Shown piece by piece: positions 35,005-55,948 of a DNA stretch of 64,000 nt. Position 1 is the first letter of the stretch. Each line of letters starts with the position of its first letter. Made by a program: the position numbers and the translations under genes. The notes below the pieces were generated by a model, which was not told where the DNA came from, searched no databases, and was given only the letters and a program-made list of their open reading frames with translations. The DNA is from Phyllobacterium sp. T1293 (GTDB lineage Bacteria > Pseudomonadota > Alphaproteobacteria > Rhizobiales > Rhizobiaceae). The DNA is taken from positions 372,001 to 436,000 of the forward strand of contig NZ_CP088276.1 in the NCBI RefSeq assembly GCF_020731415.2, in the 5' to 3' direction.

Positions 35005-35055
35005 CAGCGCATATTTTTAAAGTTTGGACGAAAATGCGCAGATGAGAGGTTGGAG

Positions 35056-36255
35056 ATGCTTGATCAGAACCCGGCAGGTGCGCCCGCAACGACGTTGCGG
35101 TCGTTGATTGCATCTGACGCTGAAGATTTGGCGCGTCAGCTGCAAGCTCATCAATCGCGCATTTTTCCGCCGACAGCGCAGAAAACAATCCGGATGTTTA
35201 CGCCCGCAGAGGCTGCCGATTTTATCGGTATTCACGAAGGGTATCTGCGCCAGATCGTGGCCGATGGTCATGGCCCGGCACCGCAGTCGAACGGACGCAG
35301 GCTTTATTCTGTCAATGATCTGGAAGAGCTGCGCCGTCTGCTTGACGCCAATGGCAAGAGTGCTGCGAAATATGTGCGGCATCGCCGGGATGGCGAAAAG
35401 CTGCAAATCATTTCGATCATGAATTTCAAGGGCGGTAGCGCGAAGACCACGACCTCAGCGCATCTGGCCCAGTATCTGGCACTGCGCGGCTATCGTGTGC
35501 TTGCCATTGATCTTGATCCTCAGGCGTCGCTCTCGGCCATGTTTGGCCACCAGCCGGAACTTGATGTCGATCAGAACGAGACGTTGTACGGCGCAATTCG
35601 CTATGGTGCTGAGCGCCGCCATATCACTGAAATCGTTCGGGCAACGTACACGCCAAACCTGCACATCATTCCGGGTAATCTGGAATTAATGGAGTTTGAG
35701 CACGAAACACCAAAGGTTCTTGCTGACAGGCGACCTGATACGATGTTTTTCTCCCGTATCGGCGAATGTCTTGCGGATATTGAATCTGCTTATGATGTGG
35801 TCATTCTCGATTGCCCACCGCAGTTGGGGTTTCTTTCGCTTTCAGCGCTTTGTGCGGCAACGGCAATTTTGATCACCGTTCATCCACAGATGCTTGACGT
35901 CATGTCCATGTCGCAGTTCCTGCACATGACCAGCGATCTCCTTGCTGTGGTCGAAAACGCAGGCGGCAAAACCGAATATGACTGGATGCGCTATTTGATT
36001 ACGCGTTTCGAGCCTAATGACGGCCCGCAAAATCAGATGGCCGGCTTTATGCGGTCAATTTTCGGTAATCGTGTTCTTGAAAGTGAGATGTTGAAGTCCA
36101 CGGCGATTTCCGATGCCGGTTTGACCAAACAAACTCTTTATGAGGTGGACCGTTCGCTGTTTACGCGCGGTACCTATGACCGGGCTTTGGAAAGCCTGAC
36201 GCTCGTTAATGGTGAAATTGAAGAATTGCTCCGTAGAACGTGGGGAAGGAAATAA
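35056..36255 (+). CDS. repA: RepA, ParA-like partition ATPase of repABC replicon
   Basis: 399 residues, normal for repABC RepA. An N-terminal HTH part (FTPAEAADFIGIHEGYLRQIV ... RRLYSVNDLEELRRLL, residues ~50-100) precedes the ParA ATPase: deviant Walker A in MNFKGGSAKTTTSAHLAQY, LAIDLDPQASLSAMFG (Walker A' Asp), and VVILDCPPQLGFLSLSAL (Walker B). It segregates the replicon with RepB and represses the repABC promoter. ATG 35056 is chosen with GAGAGG 9 bases upstream; a TTG at 35050 is in frame but weaker. Four bases separate its stop from repB. Confidence 0.96.
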   Translation: MLDQNPAGAPATTLRSLIASDAEDLARQLQAHQSRIFPPTAQKTIRMFTPAEAADFIGIHEGYLRQIVADGHGPAPQSNGRRLYSVNDLEELRRLLDANGKSAAKYVRHRRDGEKLQIISIMNFKGGSAKTTTSAHLAQYLALRGYRVLAIDLDPQASLSAMFGHQPELDVDQNETLYGAIRYGAERRHITEIVRATYTPNLHIIPGNLELMEFEHETPKVLADRRPDTMFFSRIGECLADIESAYDVVILDCPPQLGFLSLSALCAATAILITVHPQMLDVMSMSQFLHMTSDLLAVVENAGGKTEYDWMRYLITRFEPNDGPQNQMAGFMRSIFGNRVLESEMLKSTAISDAGLTKQTLYEVDRSLFTRGTYDRALESLTLVNGEIEELLRRTWGRK

Positions 36256-36258
36256 CCC

Positions 36259-37269
36259 ATGGCACGTAAAAACCTGTTTGAAATGACGCCTGAAAGCGAC
36301 GAAGCAGAATCTGCAGCGCCCGTGAGGACAACGCTGGGACGGCCGCTGCTTGGTCTTGACCGCCCTTTGCGGCCTGCAAGCCCTGTAGGGGCCATATCGC
36401 AGTCGCTCGATGGTATTTCCGCCAAGGCACAGCGGGCTGACGAAATTGAAAAGCGCCTTGCAGAAGGGCAGGCGATCATTGAGCTTGACCCTTCCCTTGT
36501 GGACGCTTCTTTCGTTGTTGATCGTCTCGGTGTTGATGCCGATGATCAATCAGGCCTGGTTGTACAGATCCGCGAACATGGACAACAGGTTCCCATTCTG
36601 GTGCGTCCGCATCCTGAAAGGGAAGGGCGGTTTCAGGTTGCCTATGGGCATAGGCGCTTGGCGGCCGTTAAAGAGATCGGCGGCAAGGTCAAGGCAGTTG
36701 TACGTGACCTTACCGACGAGCAGCTGATTGTTTCGCAGGGCCAAGAGAACAACTCACGCACTGATCTGTCGTTTGTCGAGCGCTGCTATTTCGCTGCAAA
36801 GCTGGAGACCAAGGGCTTTAACCGTGAGACGATCATGTCATCGCTCGGCGTCGATAAGGCGGCATTATCGCGCATGATCGCTCTTGTTAAGCGCATCCCA
36901 TCGCCCTTGATTGAAGCGATTGGCCCAGCACCAGCGTTCGGGCGGCAGCGCTGGGCTGAGATCGCCGACATGCTCGAAGATAAATCGAAGCGCGCGCGAG
37001 CGCTGAAACACATCGATGATGCGGATTTTCTTGCTGCGAAAAGCGATGCACGCTTCCAAATCATCTTCGATCTCATGAAAATTACCAAAGATAAGCCGCG
37101 GGTAACGGCCTGGACTGCGCCAGATGGGACATCTCCGGCGAAGATCAAGGAAACCGATGCGGCACTTAGTATAGCATTCGACAAACGGATTGGTTCGCAA
37201 TTTGGCGCTTTCGTTGAGCGCAAGCTGCTGACTTTGTTTGAAGAATTCCAGAAGGAAACAGGAGACTAG
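36259..37269 (+). CDS. repB: RepB, ParB-like partition protein of repABC replicon
   Basis: 336 residues. The ParB/Spo0J N-terminal nuclease-fold region is clear: LVVQIREHGQQVPILVRPHP, FQVAYGHRRLAAVKEIG (arginine patch), VSQGQENNSRTDLSFVERCYFA, then an HTH in TIMSSLGVDKAALSRMIALVKRIP. The C-terminal part is the RepB-specific dimerisation region. It binds the parS palindromes upstream of repA and works with RepA in partition and repression. GGGGAAGGAAATAACCC precedes the ATG. It is followed by the antisense RNA gene and repC. Confidence 0.96.
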   Translation: MARKNLFEMTPESDEAESAAPVRTTLGRPLLGLDRPLRPASPVGAISQSLDGISAKAQRADEIEKRLAEGQAIIELDPSLVDASFVVDRLGVDADDQSGLVVQIREHGQQVPILVRPHPEREGRFQVAYGHRRLAAVKEIGGKVKAVVRDLTDEQLIVSQGQENNSRTDLSFVERCYFAAKLETKGFNRETIMSSLGVDKAALSRMIALVKRIPSPLIEAIGPAPAFGRQRWAEIADMLEDKSKRARALKHIDDADFLAAKSDARFQIIFDLMKITKDKPRVTAWTAPDGTSPAKIKETDAALSIAFDKRIGSQFGAFVERKLLTLFEEFQKETGD

Positions 37270-37281
37270 ACACCGCAAAAG

Positions 37282-37331
37282 AAAAAAGCTCCCGAACGTT
37301 GCCGTCGCGGAAGCCCTTCTCACAGTGTGGT
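37282..37331 (-). ncRNA. incA: Antisense counter-transcribed RNA (ctRNA) controlling repC
   Basis: Between repB and repC, the minus strand carries a short transcription unit: promoter at 37338-37366, then ~50 bases ending in an intrinsic terminator (GCTTCCG/CGGGAGC stem, plus-strand 37288-37294 and 37308-37314) and a TTTTTT run (37282-37287). This matches the small ctRNA found in this position in repABC replicons, which pairs with the repC leader and lowers RepC synthesis, setting copy number and incompatibility. The exact 5' end is estimated. Confidence 0.82.
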
Positions 37332-37337
37332 AACTTG

Positions 37338-37366
37338 AGAATCGCATTTCCGGGAATCAGTGTCAA
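37338..37366 (-). promoter_or_regulatory. ctRNA promoter
   Basis: On the minus strand a perfect TTGACA -35 (plus 37361-37366) and GATTCT -10 (plus 37338-37343) are separated by 17 bases. The predicted start is near 37331. Confidence 0.75.
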
Positions 37367-37425
37367 GAGTAATTGGCGTCGTTTGGGCGAGCGGAGATCT
37401 TTTGCCTATTGAAAGGTAGAGGACG

Positions 37426-38811
37426 ATGCAGTCGGGGAATGCATTCACGACGCCCTTTGGGCGGCGATCGCTGTCGCTTGGCATGCTGGCAACGCAGGCC
37501 AGCGCGATGGAGGTCGATCCAGAGGCTTCGGTCGACAAATGGAAACTGTTTCGCGCATTGTGCGAGGCAAGGGCGCTGATCGGGATTTCCGACCGGGCGC
37601 TGGTGGTGCTGAATGCGCTTTTGACGTTCTATCCGCACAATGAACTGAGTGAGACGAGCGGGCTGGTGGTGTTTCCATCCAATGCGCAACTGTCATTGCG
37701 CGCCCATGGCATGGCACCGGCAACCCTGCGCCGGCATTTGAGCGCGCTGGTGGAAACCGGCCTGATCTTTCGTAAAGACAGCCCCAATGGCAAGCGCTAT
37801 GCGCGCAAGCCACGAACAGGGGCGACAGGGACAGGGGAGGGCGGTGAGGCATTTGGCTTCTCGCTGGCCCCGCTGGTGGTGCGCGCCCAGGAGTTCGAGG
37901 CGATGGCCGAAGACGTGCGCTCTGAACGGCTGCAGCTGAAGCTGATGAAGGAAAAGGTGACGCTGCTGCGCCGTGATATCGTCAAGCTGATCGAGCTTGG
38001 CTTTGAGGAAATGCCAGAAATCGACTGGAGCGGCCACTACACGGCGTTTCGCGCGGTGATGGATGATATTCCGCGCCAGGCAACGATCCGCGATCTGGAG
38101 CCAGTTGTGGACGGGCTTGAGTGCATCCAGCTGGAGATCTGCAAGTTGTTGCAGGATAAGCTGAATTTACGACAAACAAGCGCCAGAGAGTCTCATTCTG
38201 AGCGCCACAAACAAAATTCAAATACAAAATCCACTTCTGAACTTGAACCCGGCTTCAGAAAAACCCAAGGCCAAACCCACGTGCCAAACACTGCACCGGA
38301 TGTGCCTGCTAAAACGACAGAGGTTGAAACAAGCAATACAGGATCAGAAAACCCTGACAGGGCAGGGCGGCTGGCGGCTGTGGCAACTGGCCCGGCGGGT
38401 CGTGCTGCGGTAGAACCCGCTGATTTGCCCGCCAGCGAGGCTTTTGCCTCCGCCTTTGATGCAAAGCCGGTTCCGCTCGGTCTTGTCCGTCAGGCTTGCC
38501 CCGATATAGCAGCCTATGCCAGGAACGGCCTTGCCAGCTGGTCCGAACTGATGGGCGCCGCCATTGTCGTGCGCTCCATGCTCGGTGTCAGCCCATCCGC
38601 CTACGAGGAAGCCTGCTCGGTGCTTGGCCAGGAAAACGCCGCCATCGCCATGGCCTGCATCCTGCAAAGGGCCGATCAGATCAATTCTGCCGGCGGTTAT
38701 CTCAGATCTCTCACCGACAAAGCCGCAAACGGCGAATTCTCCGTCTGGCCCATGCTGCTTGCCCAGCTGCGCGCAAATGGCCAACACGTCAGAATTGTCA
38801 AAGAAAAGTGA
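37426..38811 (+). CDS. repC: RepC, replication initiator of repABC replicon
   Basis: 461 residues; RepC is the only essential replication initiator of these replicons. The N-terminal part carries FGRRSLSLGMLATQ, typical of RepC, and a winged HTH in SNAQLSLRAHGMAPATLRRHLSALVETGLIFRKDSPNGKRYARK (residues ~85-130), then the RepC_C part after a linker rich in polar residues (GSENPDRAGRLAAVATG). It ends with the conserved LIRQACPDIAAYARNGLASWSEL-like block (residues ~349-370). AGAGGA lies before the ATG. It is ~60 residues longer than many RepCs, mostly in the linker. The gene contains the likely origin (AT-rich segment). Confidence 0.96.
   Translation: MQSGNAFTTPFGRRSLSLGMLATQASAMEVDPEASVDKWKLFRALCEARALIGISDRALVVLNALLTFYPHNELSETSGLVVFPSNAQLSLRAHGMAPATLRRHLSALVETGLIFRKDSPNGKRYARKPRTGATGTGEGGEAFGFSLAPLVVRAQEFEAMAEDVRSERLQLKLMKEKVTLLRRDIVKLIELGFEEMPEIDWSGHYTAFRAVMDDIPRQATIRDLEPVVDGLECIQLEICKLLQDKLNLRQTSARESHSERHKQNSNTKSTSELEPGFRKTQGQTHVPNTAPDVPAKTTEVETSNTGSENPDRAGRLAAVATGPAGRAAVEPADLPASEAFASAFDAKPVPLGLVRQACPDIAAYARNGLASWSELMGAAIVVRSMLGVSPSAYEEACSVLGQENAAIAMACILQRADQINSAGGYLRSLTDKAANGEFSVWPMLLAQLRANGQHVRIVKEK
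38160..38260 (+). other. oriV: Candidate replication origin (oriV) within repC
   Basis: An AT-rich, A-tract-containing stretch (strongest 38201-38245) interrupts the otherwise GC-rich repC frame in the linker region. In studied repABC replicons the origin lies in an AT-rich part of the repC coding sequence; location here is inferred from that and composition. Confidence 0.55.
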
Positions 38812-42068: not shown

Positions 42069-43766
42069 TCATGCTCTCTCCGAAAAGTCATCTTTGAGGT
42101 GTCGGGCTCTCGGATCTGGGATCGGCACGGCTGCTATAAGCGCCTTCGTATAATCGTCCTGTGGATTTTCAAACACCGCGCGTCGGGTTCCCGTTTCGAC
42201 GATACGCCCGCCACGCATGACAGCGACGTGGTGGGACATTCGCTCAACCACGGCCATGTCATGCGAGATGAAGAGATAGGCAAGCCCCATCGTCTCCTGC
42301 AATTCGAGCATGAGATCAAGCACGCGTGCCCGCACCGAGACATCAAGCGCCGCAACACTTTCATCGGCAACAATAAGTTTTGGCTGCAGGGCCAGCGCCC
42401 GCGCAATGCAGATGCGCTGGCGCTGGCCTCCGGAAAATTCGTGCGGATAGCGTGTCGCCGCGTCGGGCTGCAAACCAACGCGTCGCAATAGTTCAGCTAC
42501 CCGGTCATCGCGTTCGCTCCGCCCGCCAAGGCCGTGAATGATCAACGGTTCGGCAATAGCGGCACCAACCGCCATGCGCGGATCGAGCGAGGCATAAGGG
42601 TCCTGAAAAATCATCTGTGCCGAACGACGCACCGGCTGCATCTGGCGTGCGTTCAGCCCGGCAATGTTCCTGTTGTCGATGACGACATCGCCGGTGAAGG
42701 GGATCAGCCCAAGAACCGCCTTCCCTGTGGTTGATTTGCCGGAACCGCTTTCGCCAACAAGCCCCAATGTTTCGCAGGGACGTAGCTCAAACGAGACATC
42801 ATTGACGGCGGCAGGGTGTGGTTTGCCTTTGAACAGCCATCGGGCGGGGCTGCCATAGGTCACATTCAGATTGCGCACATGCAGGATCGGCGAGGGTGAT
42901 GGGGGAACAGCGGTTGCTGCCTGCGGGCTGACACGGGGCGGGCCATCGGTGCCTGTGTGGGCACCAAGACGGGGGACAGCCGCCAGCAATTCCTGTGTAT
43001 AGGCTTGCGTGGGTTTCTCGAAGATCGACAGCGCGTCATCCTGTTCAATGATGCGCCCGTTCTGCATGACCGCAACGCGGTCGGCCATTTCGGCAACAAC
43101 GCCCATATCGTGGGTGATCAGGATGATCGATGCGCCGAATTCCTGTTTCAACTCACGCATCAGTTTGAGGATTTGTGCCTGCACTGTCACATCAAGCGCC
43201 GTGGTCGGCTCATCGGCAATCAGCACTTTCGGACGGCAGGACAGCGCCATGGCAATCATGACGCGTTGGCGCATTCCCCCGGAAAGCTCATGCGGATACT
43301 GGGTCATACGACGTGCCGGGTCGGTGATATGCACGGCGTCCAGCATCTGACGTGCAATCGTCTGCGCCGTGCCGCCTTCGCTGCCCTGATGTTCGGAAAT
43401 GGCCTCGGTCAGTTGTGCTCCAATCGACATCACAGGATTGAGCGAGGTCATCGGCTCCTGAAACACCATGGCCACATCGCCGCCTCGCACGCTGCGCATG
43501 GCACGATTTGACAGGGCCACCAGATTCTTCTCGCCAAGATGAATACTGCCCGATGCCACCTGCAACGACGCTTTCGGCAGCAACCCCATGATGGAAAGAG
43601 ACGTTACCGATTTGCCCGAACCGGATTCGCCCGCGATGCACAGCGTCTCCCCCAGATTAAGGTCAAAACTGATATCATCAAGAACCCGCCGCCGGCCTTC
43701 CGGCGTGCGGGCATCGACACAGAGATTGCAGACAGTCAGAACAGGCGTTGGGCTAAGCACAGTCAC
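42069..43766 (-). CDS. ABC transporter ATPase, double-domain (dipeptide/amide importer, DppD-DppF fusion type)
   Basis: 565 residues containing two nucleotide-binding domains in tandem. NBD1 has Walker A GESGSGKSVTSLS, signature ELSGGMRQRVMIAMAL and Walker B VLIADEPTTALD (residues ~45-195); NBD2 has GESGSGKSTTGKAV, EFSGGQRQRICIARAL and LIVADESVAALD (~335-490), with a Ser where Pro is normal. It powers the importer of the upstream permeases and binding protein. GsiA/YliA-type fused ATPases are the closest relatives. Its GTG start (43766) overlaps the stop of the amidase by 4 bases. It is the last gene of the amide operon. Confidence 0.94.
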   Translation of the reverse strand: MTVLSPTPVLTVCNLCVDARTPEGRRRVLDDISFDLNLGETLCIAGESGSGKSVTSLSIMGLLPKASLQVASGSIHLGEKNLVALSNRAMRSVRGGDVAMVFQEPMTSLNPVMSIGAQLTEAISEHQGSEGGTAQTIARQMLDAVHITDPARRMTQYPHELSGGMRQRVMIAMALSCRPKVLIADEPTTALDVTVQAQILKLMRELKQEFGASIILITHDMGVVAEMADRVAVMQNGRIIEQDDALSIFEKPTQAYTQELLAAVPRLGAHTGTDGPPRVSPQAATAVPPSPSPILHVRNLNVTYGSPARWLFKGKPHPAAVNDVSFELRPCETLGLVGESGSGKSTTGKAVLGLIPFTGDVVIDNRNIAGLNARQMQPVRRSAQMIFQDPYASLDPRMAVGAAIAEPLIIHGLGGRSERDDRVAELLRRVGLQPDAATRYPHEFSGGQRQRICIARALALQPKLIVADESVAALDVSVRARVLDLMLELQETMGLAYLFISHDMAVVERMSHHVAVMRGGRIVETGTRRAVFENPQDDYTKALIAAVPIPDPRARHLKDDFSERA

Positions 43767-44707
43767 GCGAACACGATCCTCGGGAAATAGAAGGAAACCA
43801 CCCAGTTGGGCGCATCGACGATTTCGCTGATGCGCAGGTCCCCGCAGACCGAACAGAGCAGATAGGCATCGATGGCGCTCATGCCATGCTCAGCACCCAG
43901 CAGATCGATCATGCGCATCAGACCTTCGCGGGCGCCGGTCATCAGGTCCGGGCCGATGCCGGTCGTCACCTCATAACCCGCACCATCCAGATGTCGTGTC
44001 ACCGGTTCGGTGGTGGTGAACCTTGGGCTTTTCAAACGCGCATCCTTCACCAGCTCGATGGTGGCTTCCACTTCCATCTGGCTTTCAATCGCCGTGCCGC
44101 AGACTTCGCCGTCACCTTGCGCCGCATGGGTATCGCCGATGGAGAAAAGCGCCCCGTCCACCTCAACCGGAAGATAGAGCGTCACGCCCGAGGTCAGATC
44201 GCGTATGTCGAGATTGCCGCCGACCCGGCGGGGCGGAACAACCGAATGCAGCCCCGCTTCCGCAGGGGCAACACCAATCGTTCCGGCAAAGGGTTTGAGC
44301 GGCACGCGGCCACCGGGTCCGTAAAGTGCTGGTGCCATGCTGATGGGATCATAGTTCCACATATGCAGGGCGGGCTCCTGAAACTGGTCGGCCAGCAGAC
44401 CGAAGCCCGGAATATTGGCCGTCCAGCCGACACCGGATGGCACAAAGCGGCGGATCGTCACCTTCAGTGCATCGCCCGGCTTAGCGCCCTCGACATAGAC
44501 AGGGCCAGTGACGGGATTGATCTTGCTGAAATCGAGACTATCGAGCGTCTCCAGCGTCGATCCCTTGCCCAGCTGGCCGCCGGATGAGTCAAGACACTCG
44601 AAATGAATCGTTTCACGGGCCTTGGCAATCAGCGCCGGTTCAAAATCGCGGTTCCAACCGAAATGATGTTTTGTGCGATGAATGGTGTGGGTGCAGACGA
44701 TGCACAT
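43763..44707 (-). CDS. Acetamidase/formamidase family protein
   Basis: 314 residues. The family core is visible: TKHHFGWNRDFEPAL, VYVEGAKPGDALKVTI, IPGFGLLADQ, PFAGTIGVAPAEAG, PPRRVGGNLDIRDLTSGVTLYLPVEVDGALFSIGDTHAAQGDGEVCGTAIE (residues ~155-205), then MSAIDAYLLCSVCGDLRISEIVD near the end. These enzymes hydrolyse formamide or acetamide to ammonia and the acid in the cytoplasm. ATG 44707 (MCIVCTHT) is chosen with GGGAG upstream; the frame extends to 44734. It lies within the amiC/amiR-controlled operon, giving a clear context as the catabolic enzyme. The downstream ATPase overlaps it by 4 bases. Confidence 0.92.
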   Translation of the reverse strand: MCIVCTHTIHRTKHHFGWNRDFEPALIAKARETIHFECLDSSGGQLGKGSTLETLDSLDFSKINPVTGPVYVEGAKPGDALKVTIRRFVPSGVGWTANIPGFGLLADQFQEPALHMWNYDPISMAPALYGPGGRVPLKPFAGTIGVAPAEAGLHSVVPPRRVGGNLDIRDLTSGVTLYLPVEVDGALFSIGDTHAAQGDGEVCGTAIESQMEVEATIELVKDARLKSPRFTTTEPVTRHLDGAGYEVTTGIGPDLMTGAREGLMRMIDLLGAEHGMSAIDAYLLCSVCGDLRISEIVDAPNWVVSFYFPRIVFA

Positions 44708-44735
44708 GTCAGAACTCCCGGAAAAATGATGCATG

Positions 44736-44759
44736 CCCTCGGGGCGTGTTCCCCGAGGG
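44736..44759 (-). other. Intercistronic hairpin between binding-protein and amidase genes
   Basis: CCCTCGGGG (44736-44744) and CCCCGAGGG (44751-44759) form a perfect 9-bp stem with a 6-base loop. On the minus strand a TTTTT follows 8 bases after it. Such hairpins after a binding-protein gene often protect its mRNA 3' end or partly terminate transcription, raising binding-protein levels over downstream genes. Confidence 0.6.
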
Positions 44760-44779
44760 TGTGACAGGCAAGGGCAGGT

Positions 44780-46399
44780 CTACTGCTTCACGTAGATCGC
44801 GTCGTAATTGATGACGCGGGTGGGATCGACATAGATCTTGTCCGAGCCACCCATGCGCGGCGACTTAGCCACAACGCGGCGCTCGTTGATCACGGGAATC
44901 CACGGTGCATCCGCCATGATATCGGTGAATATCTTGCCCCAGACAGCGGCACGTTCGGTTGCCTTGGCCGGATCGGACATGGAGTCTGCCGCCGTCGCAC
45001 GCTTGTCTAGATCGGCATTGCAGTACCAGGACCAGTTCCAGCCGCCGCTGACCGCGCCGGAGCAGCCAAGGATCGGGCCGTAGAAATTGGACGGATCAGG
45101 GAAATCGGCAATCCATGCCATGCCGCCGGACCAGATCATTGGCGCTTCACCTTCCGTACCGCCTGCCGCGATCACGTTGGACTGAGCCAGCGCGCGCACT
45201 TCCGCCTTGACGCCAATTGCAGCCAAATCCTGCTGGATGGCCTGAGCGACGCGCGGCTGTGGGTCGGTATTGGTCGAGTAGAGGACCGTCTGGAACCCAT
45301 CGGGGAAACCAGCCTCCGCCAACAGTGCCTTGGCTTTTGCCACGTCGTAGGCATAACCGGTATAGCTCTTGTCATAGCCGGGCATTGCGGGTGGCAGGGG
45401 CTGATTGGCGGGTGTGGCGCGGCCATTGAGAATGCGGGTGATGCGCTCCTTGTTGACGGCCATGTTGACAGCCTGACGCACTTTCACATTGTCAAACGGC
45501 TTGATTCTGGTGTTGAGCGACACATAACCGGTGTGGAGCTGTTCACCATCCACGATCATCCCGGCTCCGGCAGGGGAATTCTTGATCTCAAGGAATTTTG
45601 CCGGAGGAATGCCATCACCGGCAATATCAACCTCGCCCTTTTGCAGGCGCAGAAGCGCAACAAGCGGTTCCTGTCCAACCTCGACGGTGAACTTGTTGAT
45701 ATGCGGCATATCCTTGACGAAATAGTCGGGGTTGCGCTCGAACACGAGGCGCTGGCCGATGGTCCATTCTTTCAGGACAAATGTGCCGGAGCCAACGGGT
45801 TTCTTGCCGAAATCGCCCCCAGCCGCCTCAACAGCTTCCTGCGGAACCACGGAAGCGAAATTGATGGCCAGAACATGCAGGAAAGTGGCATCAGCACGGG
45901 AGAGATGGAAAATTACCGTGGCGGCGTCGGGAGCCTCGATGCCTTCAAGGGTTGTAGCCTTGCCACCGGACACATCTTCATAACCCTTGATCGCACTGAA
46001 GAAACCGGCGCCGGGGCCTTGTGTCTTTGGATTGACTGCACGCTCGATCGAATATTTTACATCCGAGGCAACAAGCTCGCGGCCATTGGTAAATTTCACA
46101 CCTTTGCGCAGCTTGAACGTGTAGGTCAGACCGTCCTTCGATACATCGAATGTCTCTGCAAGGGAGGGAATGAGATCGGGCGTTCCCGGCGTATAATCCA
46201 TCAGGCGCGAATAGAGGCTCTTGATCATCGACCAATTGACCCAATCATAGCCGACAGCCGGATCAAGCGTGGCGATATCATCTTTATAGGTGATGAGCAC
46301 ATCGCCCCCCTGTTGCGGGGTTTCCTGTGCCCATGCGGGTAGCGGCGTTATCAGGAGCGCCGTTGCCATGGTGGTGTTGCGAAGCCAGCGTTTTAACAT
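44780..46399 (-). CDS. ABC transporter periplasmic substrate-binding protein (SBP family 5)
   Basis: 539 residues. A signal peptide is visible (TTMATALLITPLPAWAQ, cleavage near WAQ-ET, residue ~25). The SBP_bac_5 (OppA/DppA-like) pattern follows: IATLDPAVGYDWVNWSMIKSLYSRLMDY, SLAETFDVSKDGLTYTFKLRKGVKFTNGR (residues ~80-110, family signature), YVSLNTRIKPFDNVKVRQAVNMAVNKERI. It binds substrate in the periplasm and delivers it to the permeases; amide/peptide compounds are implied by the operon. The family binds peptides, nickel, glutathione and others, so the ligand is not certain. Confidence 0.93.
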   Translation of the reverse strand: MLKRWLRNTTMATALLITPLPAWAQETPQQGGDVLITYKDDIATLDPAVGYDWVNWSMIKSLYSRLMDYTPGTPDLIPSLAETFDVSKDGLTYTFKLRKGVKFTNGRELVASDVKYSIERAVNPKTQGPGAGFFSAIKGYEDVSGGKATTLEGIEAPDAATVIFHLSRADATFLHVLAINFASVVPQEAVEAAGGDFGKKPVGSGTFVLKEWTIGQRLVFERNPDYFVKDMPHINKFTVEVGQEPLVALLRLQKGEVDIAGDGIPPAKFLEIKNSPAGAGMIVDGEQLHTGYVSLNTRIKPFDNVKVRQAVNMAVNKERITRILNGRATPANQPLPPAMPGYDKSYTGYAYDVAKAKALLAEAGFPDGFQTVLYSTNTDPQPRVAQAIQQDLAAIGVKAEVRALAQSNVIAAGGTEGEAPMIWSGGMAWIADFPDPSNFYGPILGCSGAVSGGWNWSWYCNADLDKRATAADSMSDPAKATERAAVWGKIFTDIMADAPWIPVINERRVVAKSPRMGGSDKIYVDPTRVINYDAIYVKQ

Positions 46400-46429
46400 T
46401 CTGTTCCCTTTTCTTGTTCTGGTTGAAGT

Positions 46430-47350
46430 TCAGCGCGCACGGATGCGCGGATCGAGCAGCGGCGCGATGATGTCGGCAAGCAGGTTGCCCAGAACAATCG
46501 CGAGTGCGGAAACCAGGGTGACGCCCATGATGATCGGAATATCGACCTGTTGAATGGCCTGCCACGCCAGCTGGCCGATGCCGGGCCAACCATAAACAGC
46601 TTCGACCACCACAACACCGCCCATAAACTGGCCGATATCGATACCGATCATCGCAATGATCGGCAAAAGCGCATTGGGCAGGGCATGGCGCAAAACAATA
46701 CGCGCGGACGACAGGCCCTTTGCCCGCGCCGTGCGCACATAATCCTGATTGAGCACATCGATCATGGCCGAGCGGACCATGCGGGCATACCAGCCCGCAC
46801 CGAGAATACCCAGCGTGGCGGCAGGCAGCACCACATGGGCAGCGGTGCCAAAACCGCTCATCGGGAACCAACCAAGCGTAACGGCAAAGACGTAAAGCAA
46901 CAGCAGCGCGACAACAAATTGCGGTGCTGAAACGCCGACGAACGAAGCCATCATCACAACGCGGTCAACCGCACCGCCACGGCGCAAGGCCGCTATGACG
47001 CCAAGGGTCAGGCCAAGAACGACCTCTACGAAAATACCAGCTGCCATCAAAATCAAGGTTGCGGGAAGTCGGGCGAGGATCAGTGCGCCCACATCGGTCT
47101 TTTGTGCGTAGGAGCGACCAAGATTGCCCTGGAGTATGCCTTGCACATAGGTCCAGAACTGCACGAGAAGCGGCTGATCCAGACCGAGTTCCCGGCGGAT
47201 ATTGGCAACCGTTTGTGCCGTGGCGCTGCGCCCGGCAATCATGCGGGCGGGATCAGCAGGCAAGGCATAAAGCAGCAGGAAAGTAATGGCAGCAACCCCA
47301 AGAAGGATCAGCGCGGTTTGCACGAGACGGCGCATAATGAGCAGGGCCAT
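46430..47350 (-). CDS. ABC transporter permease (DppB-type)
   Basis: 306 residues, with six transmembrane segments (RRLVQTALILLGVAAITFLLLYAL first). The EAA loop of importer permeases is visible in DYVRTARAKGLSSARIVLRHALPNALLPII (residues ~195-225). It starts at ATG 47350, 1 base after the stop of the neighbouring permease; a longer in-frame start at 47398 would overlap that gene and is rejected. It pairs with the DppC-type permease. Confidence 0.93.
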   Translation of the reverse strand: MALLIMRRLVQTALILLGVAAITFLLLYALPADPARMIAGRSATAQTVANIRRELGLDQPLLVQFWTYVQGILQGNLGRSYAQKTDVGALILARLPATLILMAAGIFVEVVLGLTLGVIAALRRGGAVDRVVMMASFVGVSAPQFVVALLLLYVFAVTLGWFPMSGFGTAAHVVLPAATLGILGAGWYARMVRSAMIDVLNQDYVRTARAKGLSSARIVLRHALPNALLPIIAMIGIDIGQFMGGVVVVEAVYGWPGIGQLAWQAIQQVDIPIIMGVTLVSALAIVLGNLLADIIAPLLDPRIRAR

Positions 47351-47351
47351 A

Positions 47352-48200
47352 TCACCCCCTCCCGCGCTGGGTGGGATCGAGAATATCGCGCAAAGCATCC
47401 CCGACCAGATTGAATGACAATGCCGTTAGAAGGATGACCGCTCCTGGGAAGAACACCAGCCACGGCGCCGCCTGAAAATAGCTCTGGCTTTCAAAGATGA
47501 TGTTTCCCCATGACGGTTGTGGCGGCTGGACGCCGATGCCAAGGAAAGAGAGCGTAGCCTCAAGCAAAACAGTTGTAGCGATGCCAAGTGTGCCCCAGAC
47601 GATGGCTGTCGGCATGAGATGCGGCAGAATATGCACGAACAGAATGCGCAGGTGCCCGGCACCGAGGGACCGTTCCGCGAGAATGAAATCACGCTCCACC
47701 AATCCGCGCGTTTCCGTATAGACAATGCGGGCCACCTGCACCCAATTGACCAGTGCAATAACCATCGCAACGATCCAAAGGCTCGGATGCAGCAATGCGG
47801 CCAGAACAATGGCCAGCAACAGGGCGGGAAACGCCATCATCAGATCGGTGAACCGCATCAGCAGGCCACCGACGGCACCGCGCAGGTAGCCGGACAGGAT
47901 GCCGACCAGAAGGCCAATGGCGACAGCAATGCCATTGGCGACAAGGCCGATGATCAACGACGTACGGGCACCAAACAACAGACGCGAGAACAGATCCCGC
48001 CCGAGTGTATCGGTGCCAAGCAGGAACTGGGTGCTGGGCGGCAGAGGCGCGCCCTCAATCGACAGCCCGTCAAACATCTGATTGTCAGGGCTATAGGGCG
48101 CAATCAATGGAGCCCCGAGTGCCATCAGTACAACCAGCGCGACGATAATCAAGCCGAACAGTGCGGATGGCTGACGCAACAGGGTTTTTAAAACGCGCAT
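47352..48200 (-). CDS. ABC transporter permease (DppC-type)
   Basis: 282 residues. It has the N-terminal OppC_N helix (ALFGLIIVALVVLMALGAPLIAPYSP) and the EAA loop ERDFILAERSLGAGHLRILFVHILPHLMPT (residues ~175-205), which contacts the ATPase. LLGTDTLGRDLFSRLLFGARTSL is the usual DppC/OppC signature. It forms the importer channel with the DppB-type permease. The ATG shares one base with the amiR stop, so it is tightly coupled to the regulators. Confidence 0.93.
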   Translation of the reverse strand: MRVLKTLLRQPSALFGLIIVALVVLMALGAPLIAPYSPDNQMFDGLSIEGAPLPPSTQFLLGTDTLGRDLFSRLLFGARTSLIIGLVANGIAVAIGLLVGILSGYLRGAVGGLLMRFTDLMMAFPALLLAIVLAALLHPSLWIVAMVIALVNWVQVARIVYTETRGLVERDFILAERSLGAGHLRILFVHILPHLMPTAIVWGTLGIATTVLLEATLSFLGIGVQPPQPSWGNIIFESQSYFQAAPWLVFFPGAVILLTALSFNLVGDALRDILDPTQRGRG

Positions 48201-48781
48201 CAGCCAGCCTCCGGCAAAGGTTCAGCACCGGCAAGAATGAGGGCCGCAACCTGCTCCATGGGCATTCGCCGCTCCATCGCGCAATTGCGCAGGATGCTGT
48301 AGGCATGTTCCTCATCGGCATTATGGGCGGCCATGATTTTCTCGACAGCCGCGTGCACTAATGGCCGAAGCCGCACGCGTTCTTCAAGGTGTTGCAATTG
48401 CCGGGATGCCGCTATGCGTTCCGCATGAATTGCAATGGCCATCACAAGGGTGGGGTAAACAGCAGATGTTGCAACGGGCTTGGCAATAATGGCCCCGGCA
48501 CCCTGTTGCATCGCCCAGGCGATACGCCCGGGCGCCTCCGAGCTGAGTAATGCGACAACAGGCAGTGGAGCTTTGCCTTCTGACCACGGCAACAAATCAT
48601 CCCAGCCTTGATCCGCATCGACCAAAACAATATCGGGTAGATCTGTGGCCGCCAATGGCTCCCATTGCACGGTGACGTAAAGACCAAGCAGCTTGAGCTG
48701 ACGTGTCAGGCGTTCCGTGGTTATGTCAGATCGATGAAGGATGGTTACGCGCCAACCGGTGAAATTAGGGGTATCTCTCAT
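48200..48781 (-). CDS. amiR: AmiR-like ANTAR-domain antiterminator
   Basis: 193 residues, as in Pseudomonas AmiR (196). A degenerate receiver-like N-terminal domain (VTILHRSDITTERLTRQLKLLG ... IVLVDADQGWDDLL) lacks the normal phospho-acceptor set. A coiled coil (ERIAASRQLQHLEERVRLRPL, residues ~118-140) leads to an ANTAR domain: VHAAVEKIMAAHNADEEHAYSILRNCAMERRMPMEQVA (residues ~138-178). ANTAR proteins bind paired hexaloop RNA hairpins to prevent termination. Its ATG overlaps the stop of amiC by 4 bases. It would be held by AmiC without amide and act on the leader upstream of amiC when released. Confidence 0.92.
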   Translation of the reverse strand: MRDTPNFTGWRVTILHRSDITTERLTRQLKLLGLYVTVQWEPLAATDLPDIVLVDADQGWDDLLPWSEGKAPLPVVALLSSEAPGRIAWAMQQGAGAIIAKPVATSAVYPTLVMAIAIHAERIAASRQLQHLEERVRLRPLVHAAVEKIMAAHNADEEHAYSILRNCAMERRMPMEQVAALILAGAEPLPEAG

Positions 48782-49914
48782 GAAACGATCCGCAATCTGA
48801 CGGGCATTTTTGTCCGGCGACGGGTAAGATAGGGATCAGCTGCAATTGCTGGCTGTGAATTCACAATATCAAAGCTGTTGTCATCATTGATACGGCCAAG
48901 ATGAAAAGGCAGCGCCATGTGATTGGTATCGGGATCGATCTGTACCTCACCGAAAACGGTCGACAGTGGCACACCGGATAAATGGCGGCGAACGGTTTGC
49001 GGATCATCGGTTCCGGCCGCAATAATCGTCTCGCCGCAGAGTTTGACGGCGGCATAGGCACTGGCAAAAATATTGGAAAGATGCCGCTGCGAACCGAAGC
49101 GCTTGGAAGCCTCTGTCTTGAAAGCCAGATTTTCCGGCGAAACAAGACTGTCAAAATAGGCCGCCACCGAAAAATGCCCAGTCGCCACACCAGTACCAAT
49201 CTCGTCCAGTTCACATTCGGAAAGATCGCAACTGACGACGGGGCAATTTTCCGGCAAAAAGGCTGGGTCACGATCACCAAGGACCTTGAATGCCTGCAGG
49301 AAAGCATAGCTTGCCGGACCAATCAGATTATTCAGCACAAAACTTGGCCGCCGCTGTTCAATATCAAGGATGATACGCTCAACGGCGGTTTCTTCCAGCG
49401 GCAGATAACGTTCACCCAGTACCTCCCCGCCAACCTGGTAGATCAGCTCCCGCGCAAGCCGGTTCATCTCCCACCCCCACACATAGTTAGCACCGACCAG
49501 ATAGGGTCGCCGACCATAGCGTGGCAGCATGTAATCGAATAGCGGTAGCAAGTGCTGATTGGGGCAGGCACCAGTATAGATCACATTTTCATTGGCCTCG
49601 AAGCCTTCATAAGGGCACATATACCAAAGTAAGCCATCATGCTTTTCGACAAGTGGGATCACTTCCTTGCGGGCAATGGACGTAATTGTCCCGACGATAT
49701 GGTTGCAACCATGGTCCCGTAGCAACGAGCGCGCGCCATCAAGGTAGCCGGGAATATGACCCTGTGGATCGATGAATACAGGTTCGATGGCACCGGGATA
49801 CTTGTTCCTTATTTCATCGATGGCAAATTCAGCACCATCGCGGCTATCCCGCCCGATGGCTCCATAGGGGCCAATCGTCGAATAGAGAATGCCAATTTTT
49901 ATTGCGTCGCCCAT
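48778..49914 (-). CDS. amiC: AmiC-like amide sensor (periplasmic-binding-protein fold, cytoplasmic)
   Basis: 378 residues without a signal peptide, the length of AmiC (385). It is a Peripla_BP type I fold, starting IKIGILYSTIGPYGAIGRDSRDGAEFAIDEI (residues ~4-35), with the AmiC/UrtA landmark CPYEGFEANENVIYTGACPNQHLLPL (residues ~105-130). In Pseudomonas AmiC binds AmiR and releases it when acetamide or a similar amide binds. ATG 49914 is chosen over 49953, because the extension would overlap the leader terminator T-run. It is the first gene of the seven-gene operon and its leader carries a terminator/antiterminator. Confidence 0.92.
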   Translation of the reverse strand: MGDAIKIGILYSTIGPYGAIGRDSRDGAEFAIDEIRNKYPGAIEPVFIDPQGHIPGYLDGARSLLRDHGCNHIVGTITSIARKEVIPLVEKHDGLLWYMCPYEGFEANENVIYTGACPNQHLLPLFDYMLPRYGRRPYLVGANYVWGWEMNRLARELIYQVGGEVLGERYLPLEETAVERIILDIEQRRPSFVLNNLIGPASYAFLQAFKVLGDRDPAFLPENCPVVSCDLSECELDEIGTGVATGHFSVAAYFDSLVSPENLAFKTEASKRFGSQRHLSNIFASAYAAVKLCGETIIAAGTDDPQTVRRHLSGVPLSTVFGEVQIDPDTNHMALPFHLGRINDDNSFDIVNSQPAIAADPYLTRRRTKMPVRLRIVS

Positions 49915-49922
49915 ATTCCACC

Positions 49923-49974
49923 AAAAACAAAAACCCCACGACGCGATTCCCATCTAGGATGGGGCGTCATGGGG
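49923..49974 (-). terminator. Leader intrinsic terminator upstream of amiC
   Basis: On the minus strand an 11-bp stem (left arm plus 49964-49974, right arm 49934-49944, one U-G pair) encloses a small CCCATC/GATGGG hairpin and is followed by TTTTTGTTTTT (49923-49933). It ends just 8 bases before the amiC ATG at 49914, so it should stop transcripts before the operon unless antitermination occurs. Confidence 0.85.
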
Positions 49975-50069
49975 CGAAACTGCCCATCGACTGTTGAAGT
50001 CATGTGAGTGCAACAAACGTTGCGCAATCAATAGGCACGATTAAAATACGTGCACCCAAAACTTGTCAA
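49969..50069 (-). promoter_or_regulatory. amiC operon promoter and candidate ANTAR antiterminator leader
   Basis: A TTGACA -35 (plus 50064-50069) and TTTTAA -10 (50041-50046) with a 17-base spacer give a start near 50034 and a leader of ~120 bases. A first hairpin (GCAAC/GTTGC, 50010-50023) is followed by a GGGC/GCCC stem with a 6-base loop (49976-49981). The second stem uses the left arm of the terminator, so the two are mutually exclusive. This is the layout of ANTAR two-hairpin leaders; the loops do not match the A1/G4 consensus perfectly. Confidence 0.65.
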
Positions 50070-50390
50070 GCGACTTATTGGAAGCTGCCATCAAGACGTT
50101 TCGGCAGGTGTCCGAAGAGACGATCGTTTGGTAATGTTCTGCTGGTTCAATGTGTCTTGACCGGCAGCGCTACCACCTGAACGCGCCGCAACATCATATG
50201 GACAAGACCAAGCGCATCCACCACGACTAGGCATCCTCGGCTGTATTGCAGGCATCACACTCAACACCGCGCTGCGTATGCGCAGGTTGGAAACCAGGCC
50301 CGCTCTCTGGCGGGGGCTCAGAGGTGCGAAGAGCGTCTTGCACGCAGGCACCCTTCTTCGCCTGCCGCTTCAATCGCGATCCAAAGCCGT

Positions 50391-50747
50391 GATTATTTGG
50401 GATCTTACGGACGGGTTGATCTCATAAACGCTGCCCCTGGCAATCGGCCCTTGTTGGATCTCTTCGAGCAAGGTGAGATAGACGCAGCATTTGCTCCATT
50501 TCTTCCATCTGGCTTCTTTAGACCCAACTCAAAGTTCAGGCAGTTACTGCCCGACTTTAGAGAGCAAGAAGTATAGTACGCCTCTAGCGCCGGTTTCGTT
50601 CCAGGAATGCATATTCTGGGAATAAAAGCTGAATTGACGTTGAAATACCCGTGGCTTGTTCAGGCAATAAGCGAAGCGTTTGATAACAGTGCGAGACTTT
50701 GGCGTGAAAAGCGTGAGAAATTTGCAGAGACCTCGCCGTGGAGATGA
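50391..50747 (+). pseudogene. Broken 4,5-dihydroxyphthalate decarboxylase-like gene (C-terminal remnant)
   Basis: One continuous frame encodes GEIDAAFAPFLPSGFF ... FRQLLPDFREQEV, then an amber TAG (50574-50576), then YASSAGFVPGMHILGIKAEL ... KYPWLVQAISEAFDNSARLW ending at TGA 50745-50747. The two halves match in order the C-terminal part of 4,5-dihydroxyphthalate decarboxylase / related substrate-binding-like proteins (GEIDA..., LFPDYRAVE..YY, FPIMH, HPWLa..L..AF). No matching N-terminal part is found upstream. It is thus a degraded gene with an in-frame stop. Confidence 0.65.
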
Positions 50748-52207
50748 GCAAACAGATTGATCTAAGTGTCTTGGATACGTTTGGCCGACGGCCACTGATC
50801 AAGCCTGACATCAGCGTGACACGTCTATTGGGTCCACCAGGTATCGCTAAGGCTGCAGCTTTGTTGCCTGTCCAGGCACGACTATTAGGTCAGCGCGCTA
50901 CACCAGAAGCTAAAGCGTCGTTGCCTTTGACGCCGGTGCGGTAACTATCACACTGATCAGGTCGTACGCCGCCGGTCCGGCTTCTGTCCAAAGCTAAACC
51001 GTTCCAGCTTCATATTTGGTTCGTCTGTTTCAGTCGCTTTGCTTCAAATTTCTCCTATAAGATTGAAAATGATAGAAAATATCCGTTACATAAAATTCAC
51101 TGGAGGAATATGGACAACCCAAACCGAAAGATGCAAATTTGGACTGAAAAAAGTTTCAGACCAAGCAAAATAAGATGTTTCTCGATTTTAGCTCATACTA
51201 TTTAAATTCAAAAATTCTGAGCCTCAAGTCCTAAGACTGATAGAAGGCTGCTCTTCAAATGAATGCCCTCAGGCTGATCGCCTCCGAATAATTGGTTCAT
51301 GAAAAGTGATACGCGTGCAGATGATCTGCAAAAGCTCGCATAGAGAGCAAGCGCTAGCGTGTTGTATGATATAACATTTCATGTCTATGGGGAATCTCGC
51401 AATGGATTTGAAATTGTTGTCTGAACAGTCATTCGCCCTGCAACGTATTGCGGTCGAATATTGAGGCATTTAATCCTGACGGTATGCCTAAAACACAATT
51501 TCTTTGGATCATTGATAACGTCGGAGAAGAAACAACTCCTAATGTGTTTAACGCCGGATTGTCGATAGCGCGGCCAAAACGAAATGGTTCATGTCAATTC
51601 TGATTAAACTCGCTTTTCGCATGTATTTATCGAGGGTTGTGGCCCAAATCATTATGAGGACGTTTATGCAAACCTCTGTAATATTTGGGTGATCATCGAA
51701 TTGTGCCCTTACGCTGCATGGTCAGGCTATAATATCGCGCCATGTTGCGATCGGGATCATAACGCGTGACATGGAATGATTGGGGGCTCAGTCATGTCCT
51801 CAAGAATCCTGACTTCAGACGCAATCGTCCAATGACAAAATTTGAATCTGTAGAACTCCATCGATTCAAATCTTTGATGGGAATGCCGCGCTGCGACACA
51901 ACTATCGGCAAGTCAAACCGAAGATTTGCAAGCCTTTCGCAGCACGATAACTTTCTGGTTTGTAAAAACGCTCATCTATCAACATGACTTGAAGCAGGCA
52001 GGATGGAATCCCATCTGGTTTCTTGTCACTATCGTAGTGTCATGCGCAACTCGTGCTAAATTCATCATGGCGTCACGTTGATCGCTGGTGACCAGCGTGA
52101 TGCCCAGACCACTCCTACAATGATCGTACTGTGGTTTCAGCCCGTCGAGTGGCAAAGAGAATCATGGACACAATTACCGGACTGCCCATTTGCTCAAGAT
52201 GGTCACC
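50748..52207. other. Gene-poor AT-rich stretch
   Basis: About 1.46 kb with no gene I can support. Short frames at 50738-50944 and 51766-51987 (both plus) have no family resemblance. From ~51000 the DNA becomes clearly AT-rich relative to neighbours. Near the end a 15-base palindrome CGCTGGT-G-ACCAGCG (52083-52097) lies ~110 bases after the SDR stop and may be a protein-binding site. It looks like decayed or foreign DNA. Confidence 0.5.
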
Positions 52208-54592: not shown

Positions 54593-55018
54593 GTTTCGGC
54601 CACAGAGGGTGTGTCACACCCAATTTTGCACGTCTAAACGGAGGTATGGCTCTGTTGGTTCGAAGCTGCCAGCACGCTGTACCAAAACTGCATAATCGGT
54701 AGTATCAACATTCGCAAAGGAAGGCTCCAAGACGTCCGCAGCGCGAGCGACTGATAATTTTCTTATCACTTTGTAGACGCCGTCATTCAATTGAAGCGAT
54801 ACCTTGCATTTGCGATTTTACGGGCTTGTGTCCTCTTGCTGAGCCGAGCGTTCGCTCGGACATGGCAGGAAAGTTCTGTTCGAGACGGTACCGCGATCTG
54901 ATCGGAACTTCGCCATGAAGATGTGAGTATCCATTGTGATCATTGACAGTAATTATGTCATATGCGTGAGATAACAAAGTGTAGACTATCCCGTGATACT
55001 TCTCAAAGAGGTGCGGCA
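54593..55018. other. Intergenic region between ISL3 remnant and hydrolase gene
   Basis: About 425 bases with no supported gene. A minus-strand frame (54783-55031) has no recognisable product. Possible IS-end sequence is not certain. Confidence 0.45.
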
Positions 55019-55948
55019 ATGCAAAGTCCATTCCCCGCGAGCATGAGCAGCTATGTTAGCGGGCAAATTGCCAAAATTGAAGGTGAGCAGCGACGGCAGG
55101 CGGAAATTGCGGCGGTTAATGCCGCAACGGATATTTTCGCAGGCGTTGACGGGACGGGGGTATTTAACGACCGCCAGTATCAGCTGGAATTTCAGAACAG
55201 CTTCGTCAACCGCATGTTTCGGGAATGGGACACGCCAGCGAAATTTTACCGGCGCGGCCCAAGTATAGATGGTATCGGAACAGCCAATCTGGCCTTTGCT
55301 GCCTTCGAATATGTCCATAAGCTTTATGACCAGAAAGCTGAGAAGCCTAAGCGGATTTTTCTCGCTGGTTATAGTCGGGGTGGTGCGGCGGTCGTCAAAG
55401 TATGTGATCTCCTGCAGGACAGGGGCATACCCGTGCACGGTCTTTTCCTGTTCGATGCGGTCGATAGGGCAGTGCTGATTACCCCCAGTTTTATTCCCAG
55501 AAATGTCCGCTACTGTTTCCATGCCCGTCGCGATCCGCGAAGCAATTCACGCAACAGCTTTGGCAGCTATGGCACCAAGGTCTATCGCGATGCCACGGCC
55601 TATCGGGAAAGATTTTTCTATTGCACCCATGGGGGCATGGGCGGGGTTCCCTGGCTCAAGGCAGATCCGGATGGTCATATCAACGAGGCTGAAAACATAA
55701 ATCTCGGAAAGCCAATTGTGCAAAACCCTACACTTCGTGTTTTGGCCATGACCAATCCTGCCACCGCCAGTCTGGTGATATCAGATCACCTAGCTCGTCA
55801 GGGGAACGATGCTTATCGTGCCGCAGGCCGCACGAATGTAACCTTACAGCAGGACAAAGTTGGTTCAGCTGAAGTCGGGCAATGGATGTTCGCCGCACTC
55901 AAAGAGTTGCGCAAGGACGCTGCAACTGCTCAAGTTCCGGCGTTTTGA
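55019..55948 (+). CDS. Alpha/beta-hydrolase, DUF2235/Tle-like
   Basis: 309 residues. An Asp-rich loop FAGVDGTGVFNDRQYQLEF (residues ~40-58) resembles the start of DUF2235 proteins, and the nucleophile elbow IFLAGYSRGGAAVVKV (residues ~110-125) gives G-x-S-x-G with the catalytic Ser. LFLFDAVDRAVL is a candidate Asp and FFYCTHGGMGGVPW a candidate His. DUF2235 includes type VI lipase effectors (Tle1), but no T6SS genes are present here, and no signal peptide or membrane segment is visible, so a role as a free cytoplasmic lipase/esterase is only a possibility. ATG 55019 follows GAGGTG. It lies alone between two transposase remnants, suggesting acquired cargo. Confidence 0.7.
   Translation: MQSPFPASMSSYVSGQIAKIEGEQRRQAEIAAVNAATDIFAGVDGTGVFNDRQYQLEFQNSFVNRMFREWDTPAKFYRRGPSIDGIGTANLAFAAFEYVHKLYDQKAEKPKRIFLAGYSRGGAAVVKVCDLLQDRGIPVHGLFLFDAVDRAVLITPSFIPRNVRYCFHARRDPRSNSRNSFGSYGTKVYRDATAYRERFFYCTHGGMGGVPWLKADPDGHINEAENINLGKPIVQNPTLRVLAMTNPATASLVISDHLARQGNDAYRAAGRTNVTLQQDKVGSAEVGQWMFAALKELRKDAATAQVPAF

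Follow-up and report, generated by a model that had tools for sequence, protein, structure and literature searches.

The amiE leader of Pseudomonas has amiC and amiR among the genes downstream of it. Published targets of ANTAR proteins are hexaloops with an adenine at position 1 (A1) and a guanine at position 4 (G4); a change at either position weakens binding by EutV (PMC3369931), and G4 stacks on EutV Tyr164 (PMC8934654). The survey of ANTAR targets in PMC3369931 was seeded with A1 and G4 in both loops, so that leaders lacking G4 would probably have been hard for it to see. On a plasmid of Klebsiella sp. KOS9, an 8-kb "acetamidase operon" holding amiC, amiR, an amidase and a cluster-5 ATP-binding cassette (ABC) importer of four ABC genes was described in 2026; that report calls the enzyme amiE and its substrate acetamide, and gives a similarity of >99% to Enterobacteriaceae plasmids (PMC13209695). 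Here, we analyzed a seven-gene operon and its leader (positions 42069 to 50069) in a window of 64,000 nucleotides from Phyllobacterium sp. T1293 (contig NZ_CP088276.1, positions 372,001 to 436,000), on a replicon that carries repABC within the window and is a large plasmid. We consider it likely that this is an inducible operon, controlled by an RNA switch, through which the cell scavenges small amides for nitrogen and carbon; the likeliest of these are L-amino-acid amides.

The operon is a minus-strand run from 49914 to 42069, in the order amiC, amiR, permease, permease, substrate-binding protein (SBP), fmdA and fused ATPase, based on the list of open reading frames (ORFs) and Pfam. An initial annotation, made from the letters alone, had named the same seven genes in this order and had described them as an AmiC/AmiR module combined with an ABC importer of the dipeptide type and an amidase of the FmdA family; both statements are borne out by the Pfam matches, which are Peripla_BP_5 (AmiC/UrtA type), AmiR_N with ANTAR, BPD_transp_1 in each permease, SBP_bac_5, FmdA_AmdA, and two ABC_tran domains with oligo_HPY in the ATPase. 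No nitrilase or AmiS family was found among the Pfam matches of the seven genes. By sequence and structure, the locus has the AmiC-type periplasmic-binding fold, predicted to act inside the cell, the AmiR pseudo-receiver with ANTAR and the leader terminator that characterize AmiC-AmiR systems.

The first gene, amiC (48778 to 49914), encodes an AmiC-type amide sensor of 378 amino acids (PF13433, 351 bits; PDB 1pea, E 3e-47; PDB 8tg1, E 1e-53; AlphaFold2 pLDDT 86.7) that is 93% identical to AmiC of Phyllobacterium sp. OV277 and in which no signal peptide was seen by eye. We place its start at the ATG at 49914, from which relatives align, and not at the mechanical ORF start at 49953, because the first 39 bases of that ORF are the terminator region. 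The next gene, amiR (48200 to 48781), encodes a predicted ANTAR RNA-binding antiterminator of 193 amino acids (PF03861, 42.2 bits against a cut-off of 27.3; PF21332, 36 bits against 27; 1qo0_D, E 2e-11). It is followed by permeases of the OppC/DppC type (47352 to 48200; PF00528, PF12911) and the OppB/DppB type (46430 to 47350; PF00528, PF19300), a family 5 SBP of 539 amino acids (44780 to 46399; PF00496, 338 bits), an FmdA_AmdA-family amidase of 314 amino acids (43763 to 44707; PF03069, 195 bits; 2ii1 and 2f4l, both at E about 1e-38), and a fused DppD-DppF-type ATPase of 565 amino acids with two ABC_tran stretches (42069 to 43766); the starts of the second permease (47350) and of fmdA (44707) are corrected ones. 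The tight junctions described in the initial annotation are present at four of the six boundaries (amiC/amiR, overlap of 4; amiR/permease, overlap of 1; permease/permease, gap of 1; fmdA/ATPase, overlap of 4) and absent from the other two, where the permease/SBP gap is 30 and the SBP/fmdA gap is 72.

To define conservation, we used two samples. The first, set A, comprises the window and the best 80 of 158 encoding loci from a scan of genome contigs, all 80 being rhizobial by title. The scan peptides included WYMCPYEG and NYVWGWEM, which contain pocket positions of AmiC, and WGFCFWWN, a piece of the leader translated via the wrong start; set A is therefore biased toward pocket and leader features. 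The second sample, free of such bias, came from an AmiR_N search of 398 genomes of the phylum and 297 of the order, which gave 104 distinct matches over the cut-off outside the window's own genome. We took 90 of these 104 regions; the others were 3 that lie in long open frames and 11 with mostly high scores. One region (L206) had no match, leaving 89 for synteny, and the 69 with both AmiC and AmiR (31 full operons and 38 others) entered the leader test.

The operon of seven genes is borne out and shows strong conservation, beyond what chance would give. Among the 80 set-A loci, 77 have exactly this order; the three exceptions are L013 and L055, in which the operon breaks off near contig ends, and L053, where the SBP match is in two pieces. 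Of the 90 AmiR_N regions, 31 have the full order. The conserved synteny of amiC-amiR with SBP family 5 and FmdA genes, which the initial annotation had proposed to look for in other genomes, was found in both samples. Median spacings among the 77 set-A loci with full order are -4, -1, -1, 27, 69 and -4. In set A, AmiC and AmiR average 70% identity to the window and the products of the remaining five genes 79-88%, making the regulators the fastest-changing part. A tree of 76 AmiC proteins divides 39 from full operons and 5 from other family-5 types from the remaining 32 by a 100/100 branch.

In many of the AmiR_N loci without the full order, AmiC-AmiR precedes another AmiC-like protein and a pair of ATPases, an importer of the urea/branched-chain type. 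Five (L135, L177, L180, L186 and L188) combine AmiC-AmiR with a separate importer of family 5; these represent a second kind of family-5 operon with separate ATPases, their AmiC proteins group at 100/97, and in L177 and L180 FmdA directly follows amiR. In L131, L139 and L193, a single run comprises AmiC-AmiR, another AmiC-like SBP, a pair of ATPases and a match to FmdA, so the FmdA amidase family appears to pair with urea-type importers as well. Next to the full operon in L016 (900-9300) is a divergent cluster of matches to AmiC (42%), AmiR (37%), an SBP, a permease and an ATPase, placing two related systems back to back.

Upstream of amiC is a minus-strand leader with a terminator and a hairpin that exclude each other. 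The intrinsic terminator (49923 to 49975) has its stem at 49934-49974 and a U tract, TTTTTGTTTTT, at 49923-49933, as judged from folding, covariation and shuffles. A predicted antiterminator hairpin, P2 (49972 to 49985; GGGC[AGUUUC]GCCC), uses the 5' end of the terminator stem as its 3' arm, and the two cannot both form because bases 49972-49974 are common to them. Three nucleotides before P2 is a smaller hairpin, P1 (49989 to 50001; GACU-UCAAC-AGUC). Further upstream is a promoter-like arrangement (50040 to 50069) of TTGACA at 50064-50069, a 15-nt spacer and TATTTTAAT at 50040-50048; the end at 50069 given to the operon in the initial annotation is the far edge of this TTGACA. A loose promoter pattern ([CT]TTGAC, 14-19 nt, TA[TA]), applied with no shuffled control, matches 74 of 81 set-A leaders and 4 of 31 full-operon leaders elsewhere. 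It is absent from the leader of the Klebsiella plasmid operon discussed below, and a general scan gave no score to the window's TTGACA site.

The 82-nt window leader folds with a minimum free energy of -36.6 kcal/mol (z -4.8), and 1 of 200 shuffles was as good. Across 77 distinct aligned leaders, 94.5% of cells in P1 plus terminator are paired, with two-sided changes at 12 pairs; cells with such changes number 92 compared to 21.1 in shuffles, and slides by 1-3 columns reduce pairing to 31-42%. For P1 with P2, 98.8% of cells are paired, with P2 alone at 100% and P1 alone at 97.6%. Covariation in P2 is thin (a two-sided change at one pair, in 2 sequences), in contrast to the strong covariation of the terminator. 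P1 shows two-sided changes at 2 of its 4 pairs; its loop has five bases in the window and 3-7 bases of non-conserved sequence across leaders, and since such hairpins occur in 236 of 800 shuffles, P1 is weaker evidence than P2 and the terminator. RNAalifold alone draws P1 and the terminator and omits P2, which excludes the terminator.

Both the terminator and P2 are present in all 81 set-A leaders. A strict terminator finder was positive in 81/81 set-A leaders (6/405 shuffles), in 27/31 full operons elsewhere (10/155 shuffles) and in 12/38 other AmiC-AmiR loci (7/190 shuffles), and gave 0 on amiC-internal stretches in each group (0/81 in set A). In a gathering-threshold Rfam scan of the window, no family covered the leader. 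The leader terminator was also missed by a simple scan for terminators, probably owing to the 8-base loop limit of that scan. A covariance model of the leader found one strong site in the window's own genome (E 2.6e-29), the next two at 0.065 and 0.076 (150 of 2,141 first-look candidates were scored). Of 20 genomes of the genus, 10 carry the leader motif, and these same 10 carry AmiC. Among 39 relatives outside the genus, the model gave one match (G406, E 1.8e-4), which is not at that genome's AmiR locus, L188; the model is narrow, as it missed G411, which has a full operon (L178).

Going by the protein families, we propose the following mechanism. Transcription would start about 120 bases upstream of amiC and stop by default at the terminator, with some read-through supplying AmiC and AmiR, which would be kept as an inactive complex. 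An amide entering the cell would bind AmiC and release AmiR, and free AmiR would bind P2, with P1 beside it, blocking the terminator. The full operon would then be transcribed and sensor, importer and amidase would rise together, the SBP and Dpp-type ABC importer taking in the amide and the FmdA-family amidase removing ammonia from it. The initial annotation had stressed that the switch includes its own regulators; the terminator does precede amiC, and this is not special to the arrangement, as the Pseudomonas genes are laid out likewise.

The P2 loop departs from the A1/G4 rule. In set A, A1 is present in 81/81 loops, and the fourth base is U in 69 loops, A in 12 and G in none (the strict finder placed P2 in 80/81; L064 was placed by hand in this fixed-position count). 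Among the 24 P2 hairpins found in the 31 full operons elsewhere, A1 is present in 22, and position 4 is U in 9, A in 9, C in 4 and G in 2; L182, one of these two G4 loops, lacks A1. The window has two small hairpins in tandem, of which the second overlaps the terminator, with P1 weakly supported and its five-base loop differing from the published six-base A1/G4 form. On the protein side, AmiR has Tyr, Arg, Met and Arg at the positions of EutV residues 164, 168, 172 and 175 in 81/81 sequences, based on alignment, and Pro at the position of Arg177 in 66/81. No correlation between loop position 4 and these contact residues was seen by eye.

We consider it unlikely that the amide system is right and AmiR has a target other than P2, or that the terminator is opened in some other way, for example by a ligand-sensing leader; either would be compatible with the operon's function. 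In favor of such a reading, a canonical A1/G4 hexaloop occurs elsewhere in the leader in 14 of 81 set-A leaders with no common position (the commonest offset is shared by 5), and CACATGAC, upstream of P1 and conserved among set-A leaders, has no assigned role. P2, however, sits where ANTAR P2 hairpins do, at the 5' end of the terminator; its A1 and the four AmiR contact residues are invariant in set A; and A1 and G4 are together at the P2 place in the Klebsiella leader L082 (loop AAUGAA) and in the alphaproteobacterial leaders L190 and L191. A long-range pairing of CACATGAC with the terminator 3' arm was rejected by eye: the arm varies with no matching change in L056 and L058, where CACATGAC is kept, and in L076, which has CACATCGAC.

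The ligand is probably not acetamide but L-amino-acid amides, judging by the likeness of the SBP to PDB 8upi (68.7% identity over 511 residues). We take 8upi to be a Mesorhizobium SBP that binds L-amino-acid amides and comes from FmdA-linked operons; the structure and the associated set of SBP, FmdA and ABC genes were reportedly described by Frkic et al. in Biochemistry in 2024. SBPs from the full operons L148, L147 and L143 are 98.4, 98.2 and 96.1% identical to 8upi, and the 8upi type of protein therefore belongs to the same kind of operon. The AmiC pocket was compared at the positions of Tyr83, Thr106 and Tyr152, which we take to be the ligand contacts of Pseudomonas AmiC, reading the residues from the alignment. 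Set-A proteins have Ile, Cys and Trp there in 81/81, a biased count since the scan peptides contain the last two. In the 31 full operons of the AmiR-based sample, the first position is Ile in 18 or Val in 8, the second Cys in 22 and the third Trp in all 31; the commonest residues in the 38 other AmiC proteins are Tyr (16), Ser (21) and Tyr (17); Ser85 and Tyr104 are each kept in 31/31 full operons. By this comparison, the sensor has changed along with the importer. The suggestion in the initial annotation that the ligand may be larger than acetamide is thus favored by the SBP likeness and the pocket changes.

A bolder joint claim can be made, to which we give slightly less than even credence: that these AmiR proteins read a code other than A1/G4, namely one hexaloop in which A1 is combined mostly with U, A or C as the fourth base, beside a hairpin with a code-free loop; that surveys seeded with A1 and G4, as in PMC3369931, would have missed this whole class of ANTAR switches; and that the Ile/Cys/Trp clade of AmiC is a dedicated intracellular sensor of amino-acid amides.

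A relative of the operon is found on plasmids of Klebsiella. The conjugative IncF plasmid locus L082 (OW969756.1, 76225-95286) has the exact seven-gene order; it is 38% identical to the window in AmiC, which lies on a long branch of unsure placement in the tree, and 63% in the SBP, and its AmiC pocket has Ile, Cys and Trp. Using the L082 operon as a query, at least 80% of it was found in 735 of 72,556 plasmid records and in 6 of 5,426 E. coli genomes; Klebsiella accounts for 755 of the 1,136 plasmid records with any match. We take L082 to be of the same kind as the KOS9 operon, likening the two by description and not by sequence. The gene arrangement, which the initial annotation was unsure had been described, is accordingly not new, being in print for that plasmid, where no leader was mentioned by word search in the part of the report available (PMC13209695).

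The annotation of L082 is of the Gsi (glutathione) type, and Gsi and formamidase labels are carried by at least 5 among the 40 matches listed. It is highly improbable that the operon encodes a glutathione or di/oligopeptide importer (GsiABCD) with a side amidase, as these annotations would have it. The best NCBIfam matches of the ATPase and SBP are indeed GsiA and GsiB, and the fused ATPase passes several general dipeptide/nickel ATPase cut-offs, both of its domains adding to the score. The Gsi equivalog cut-offs, however, are all missed (GsiA, 692 against 1077 bits; GsiB, 215 against 594; GsiC, 258 against 463; GsiD, 215 against 484), and an amidase and an amide-type sensor are fixed in the operon. 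The glutathione-transporter label on the plasmid relatives is likely a misnomer. AmiC similarly misses the UrtA cut-off (TIGR03407, 221.9 against 492.75 bits).

It is doubtful, though of more weight, that the operon serves acetamide or formamide, with the same switch acting on short aliphatic amides, as PMC13209695 proposes for the Klebsiella relative. The amidase is in the FmdA_AmdA family, and the excerpted text reports acetamidase activity in lysates of KOS9 grown with acetamide; since the sole annotated acetamidase gene of KOS9 sits in its amiC-amiR-ABC operon, that result favors acetamide as a substrate in Klebsiella. Against this, the same text reports no deletion and states that KOS9 could not be assayed for growth on acetamide (PMC13209695). 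In the window, the amidase misses the formamidase equivalog (NF045496, 109.7 against 500 bits), the SBP is a close homologue of 8upi and belongs to family 5, which would be unusual for acetamide on general knowledge, and the AmiC pocket is altered at all three of the contact positions compared. Enzymes of the FmdA family may act on acetamide as well as on larger amides.

Together with the KOS9 lysate activity, several further points weigh against an amino-acid-amide operon switched at P2. Binding of AmiR to P2 is not guaranteed, because P2 lacks the G4 that EutV needs. Outside set A, the strict search missed the terminator in 4 of 31 full-operon leaders and located P2 in 24 of these 31, and no P1 was found in the L082 leader, which has terminator and P2. 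Trp at the Tyr152 position is also present in 13 of the 38 AmiC proteins of other operons, and the pocket uniformity of set A is partly forced by WYMCPYEG and NYVWGWEM. On balance, we continue to favor the inducible operon for L-amino-acid amides.

Other features of the window include a strong minus-strand hairpin in the SBP/fmdA spacer (44736 to 44759; CCCUCGGGG-AACACG-CCCCGAGGG), predicted by RNA folding and lacking a U tract. The spacer folds at -15 kcal/mol or below in 77/77 set-A loci with full order, and the hairpin may stabilize the upstream message and set the level of SBP above that of the enzyme. Immediately upstream of the operon, 50070-52207 is a stretch of about 2.1 kb with no ORF of at least 90 amino acids, whose only match in the plasmid collection is one of 166 bases to a WGR-domain gene of Phyllobacterium sp. 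628; it looks decayed. The repABC replication genes lie at 35050-38811 and contain the window's only Rfam matches, ctRNA_p42d (37275-37320, minus strand) and the S-element (37361-37428, plus strand). An FtsK-family DNA translocase of 949 amino acids is encoded at 20544-23393, and a 328-amino-acid ORF at 54962-55948 has no Pfam match at E 1e-5.

These results tie a widespread nutrient operon of plant-associated bacteria, with a relative on hundreds of mainly Klebsiella plasmids, to a concrete switch, and propose a sensor for amino-acid amides; where these compounds come from in nature and what they do for soil bacteria is, to our knowledge, poorly understood. If AmiR acts on loops lacking G4, ANTAR targets have been defined too narrowly in print, and the genomes already known contain such switches beyond those listed. 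The leader, the G4-less loop and the pocket signature did not turn up in our literature searches, which covered open-licence PubMed Central.

Compared with described systems, the locus shares with amiEBCRS of Pseudomonas aeruginosa an AmiC-type sensor, an AmiR with ANTAR and, going by the Pseudomonas leader described in PMC3369931, a terminator in the leader whose 5' end bears a hexaloop hairpin. It differs in having an FmdA amidase in place of the nitrilase AmiE, a Dpp-type ABC importer in place of AmiS, and its leader before amiC. Its P2 loop is without G4, and its AmiC pocket has Ile, Cys and Trp in place of Tyr83, Thr106 and Tyr152. With the FmdA-linked SBP_bac_5 amide systems to which we assign 8upi, it has in common an SBP that is 68.7% identical and an FmdA_AmdA amidase with adjoining ABC genes. 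Like the dual-hexaloop ANTAR RNA of EutV, the leader has two small hairpins, the second inside the terminator, and a six-base P2 loop with A1 (PMC3369931, PMC8934654, in the parts available); unlike it, the leader lacks G4, its P1 loop of 3-7 bases is not conserved, and the position of Arg177 is Pro in 66 of 81 AmiR proteins. With the KOS9 operon, as given in the accessible text of PMC13209695, it shares amiC, amiR, the amidase and four ABC genes.

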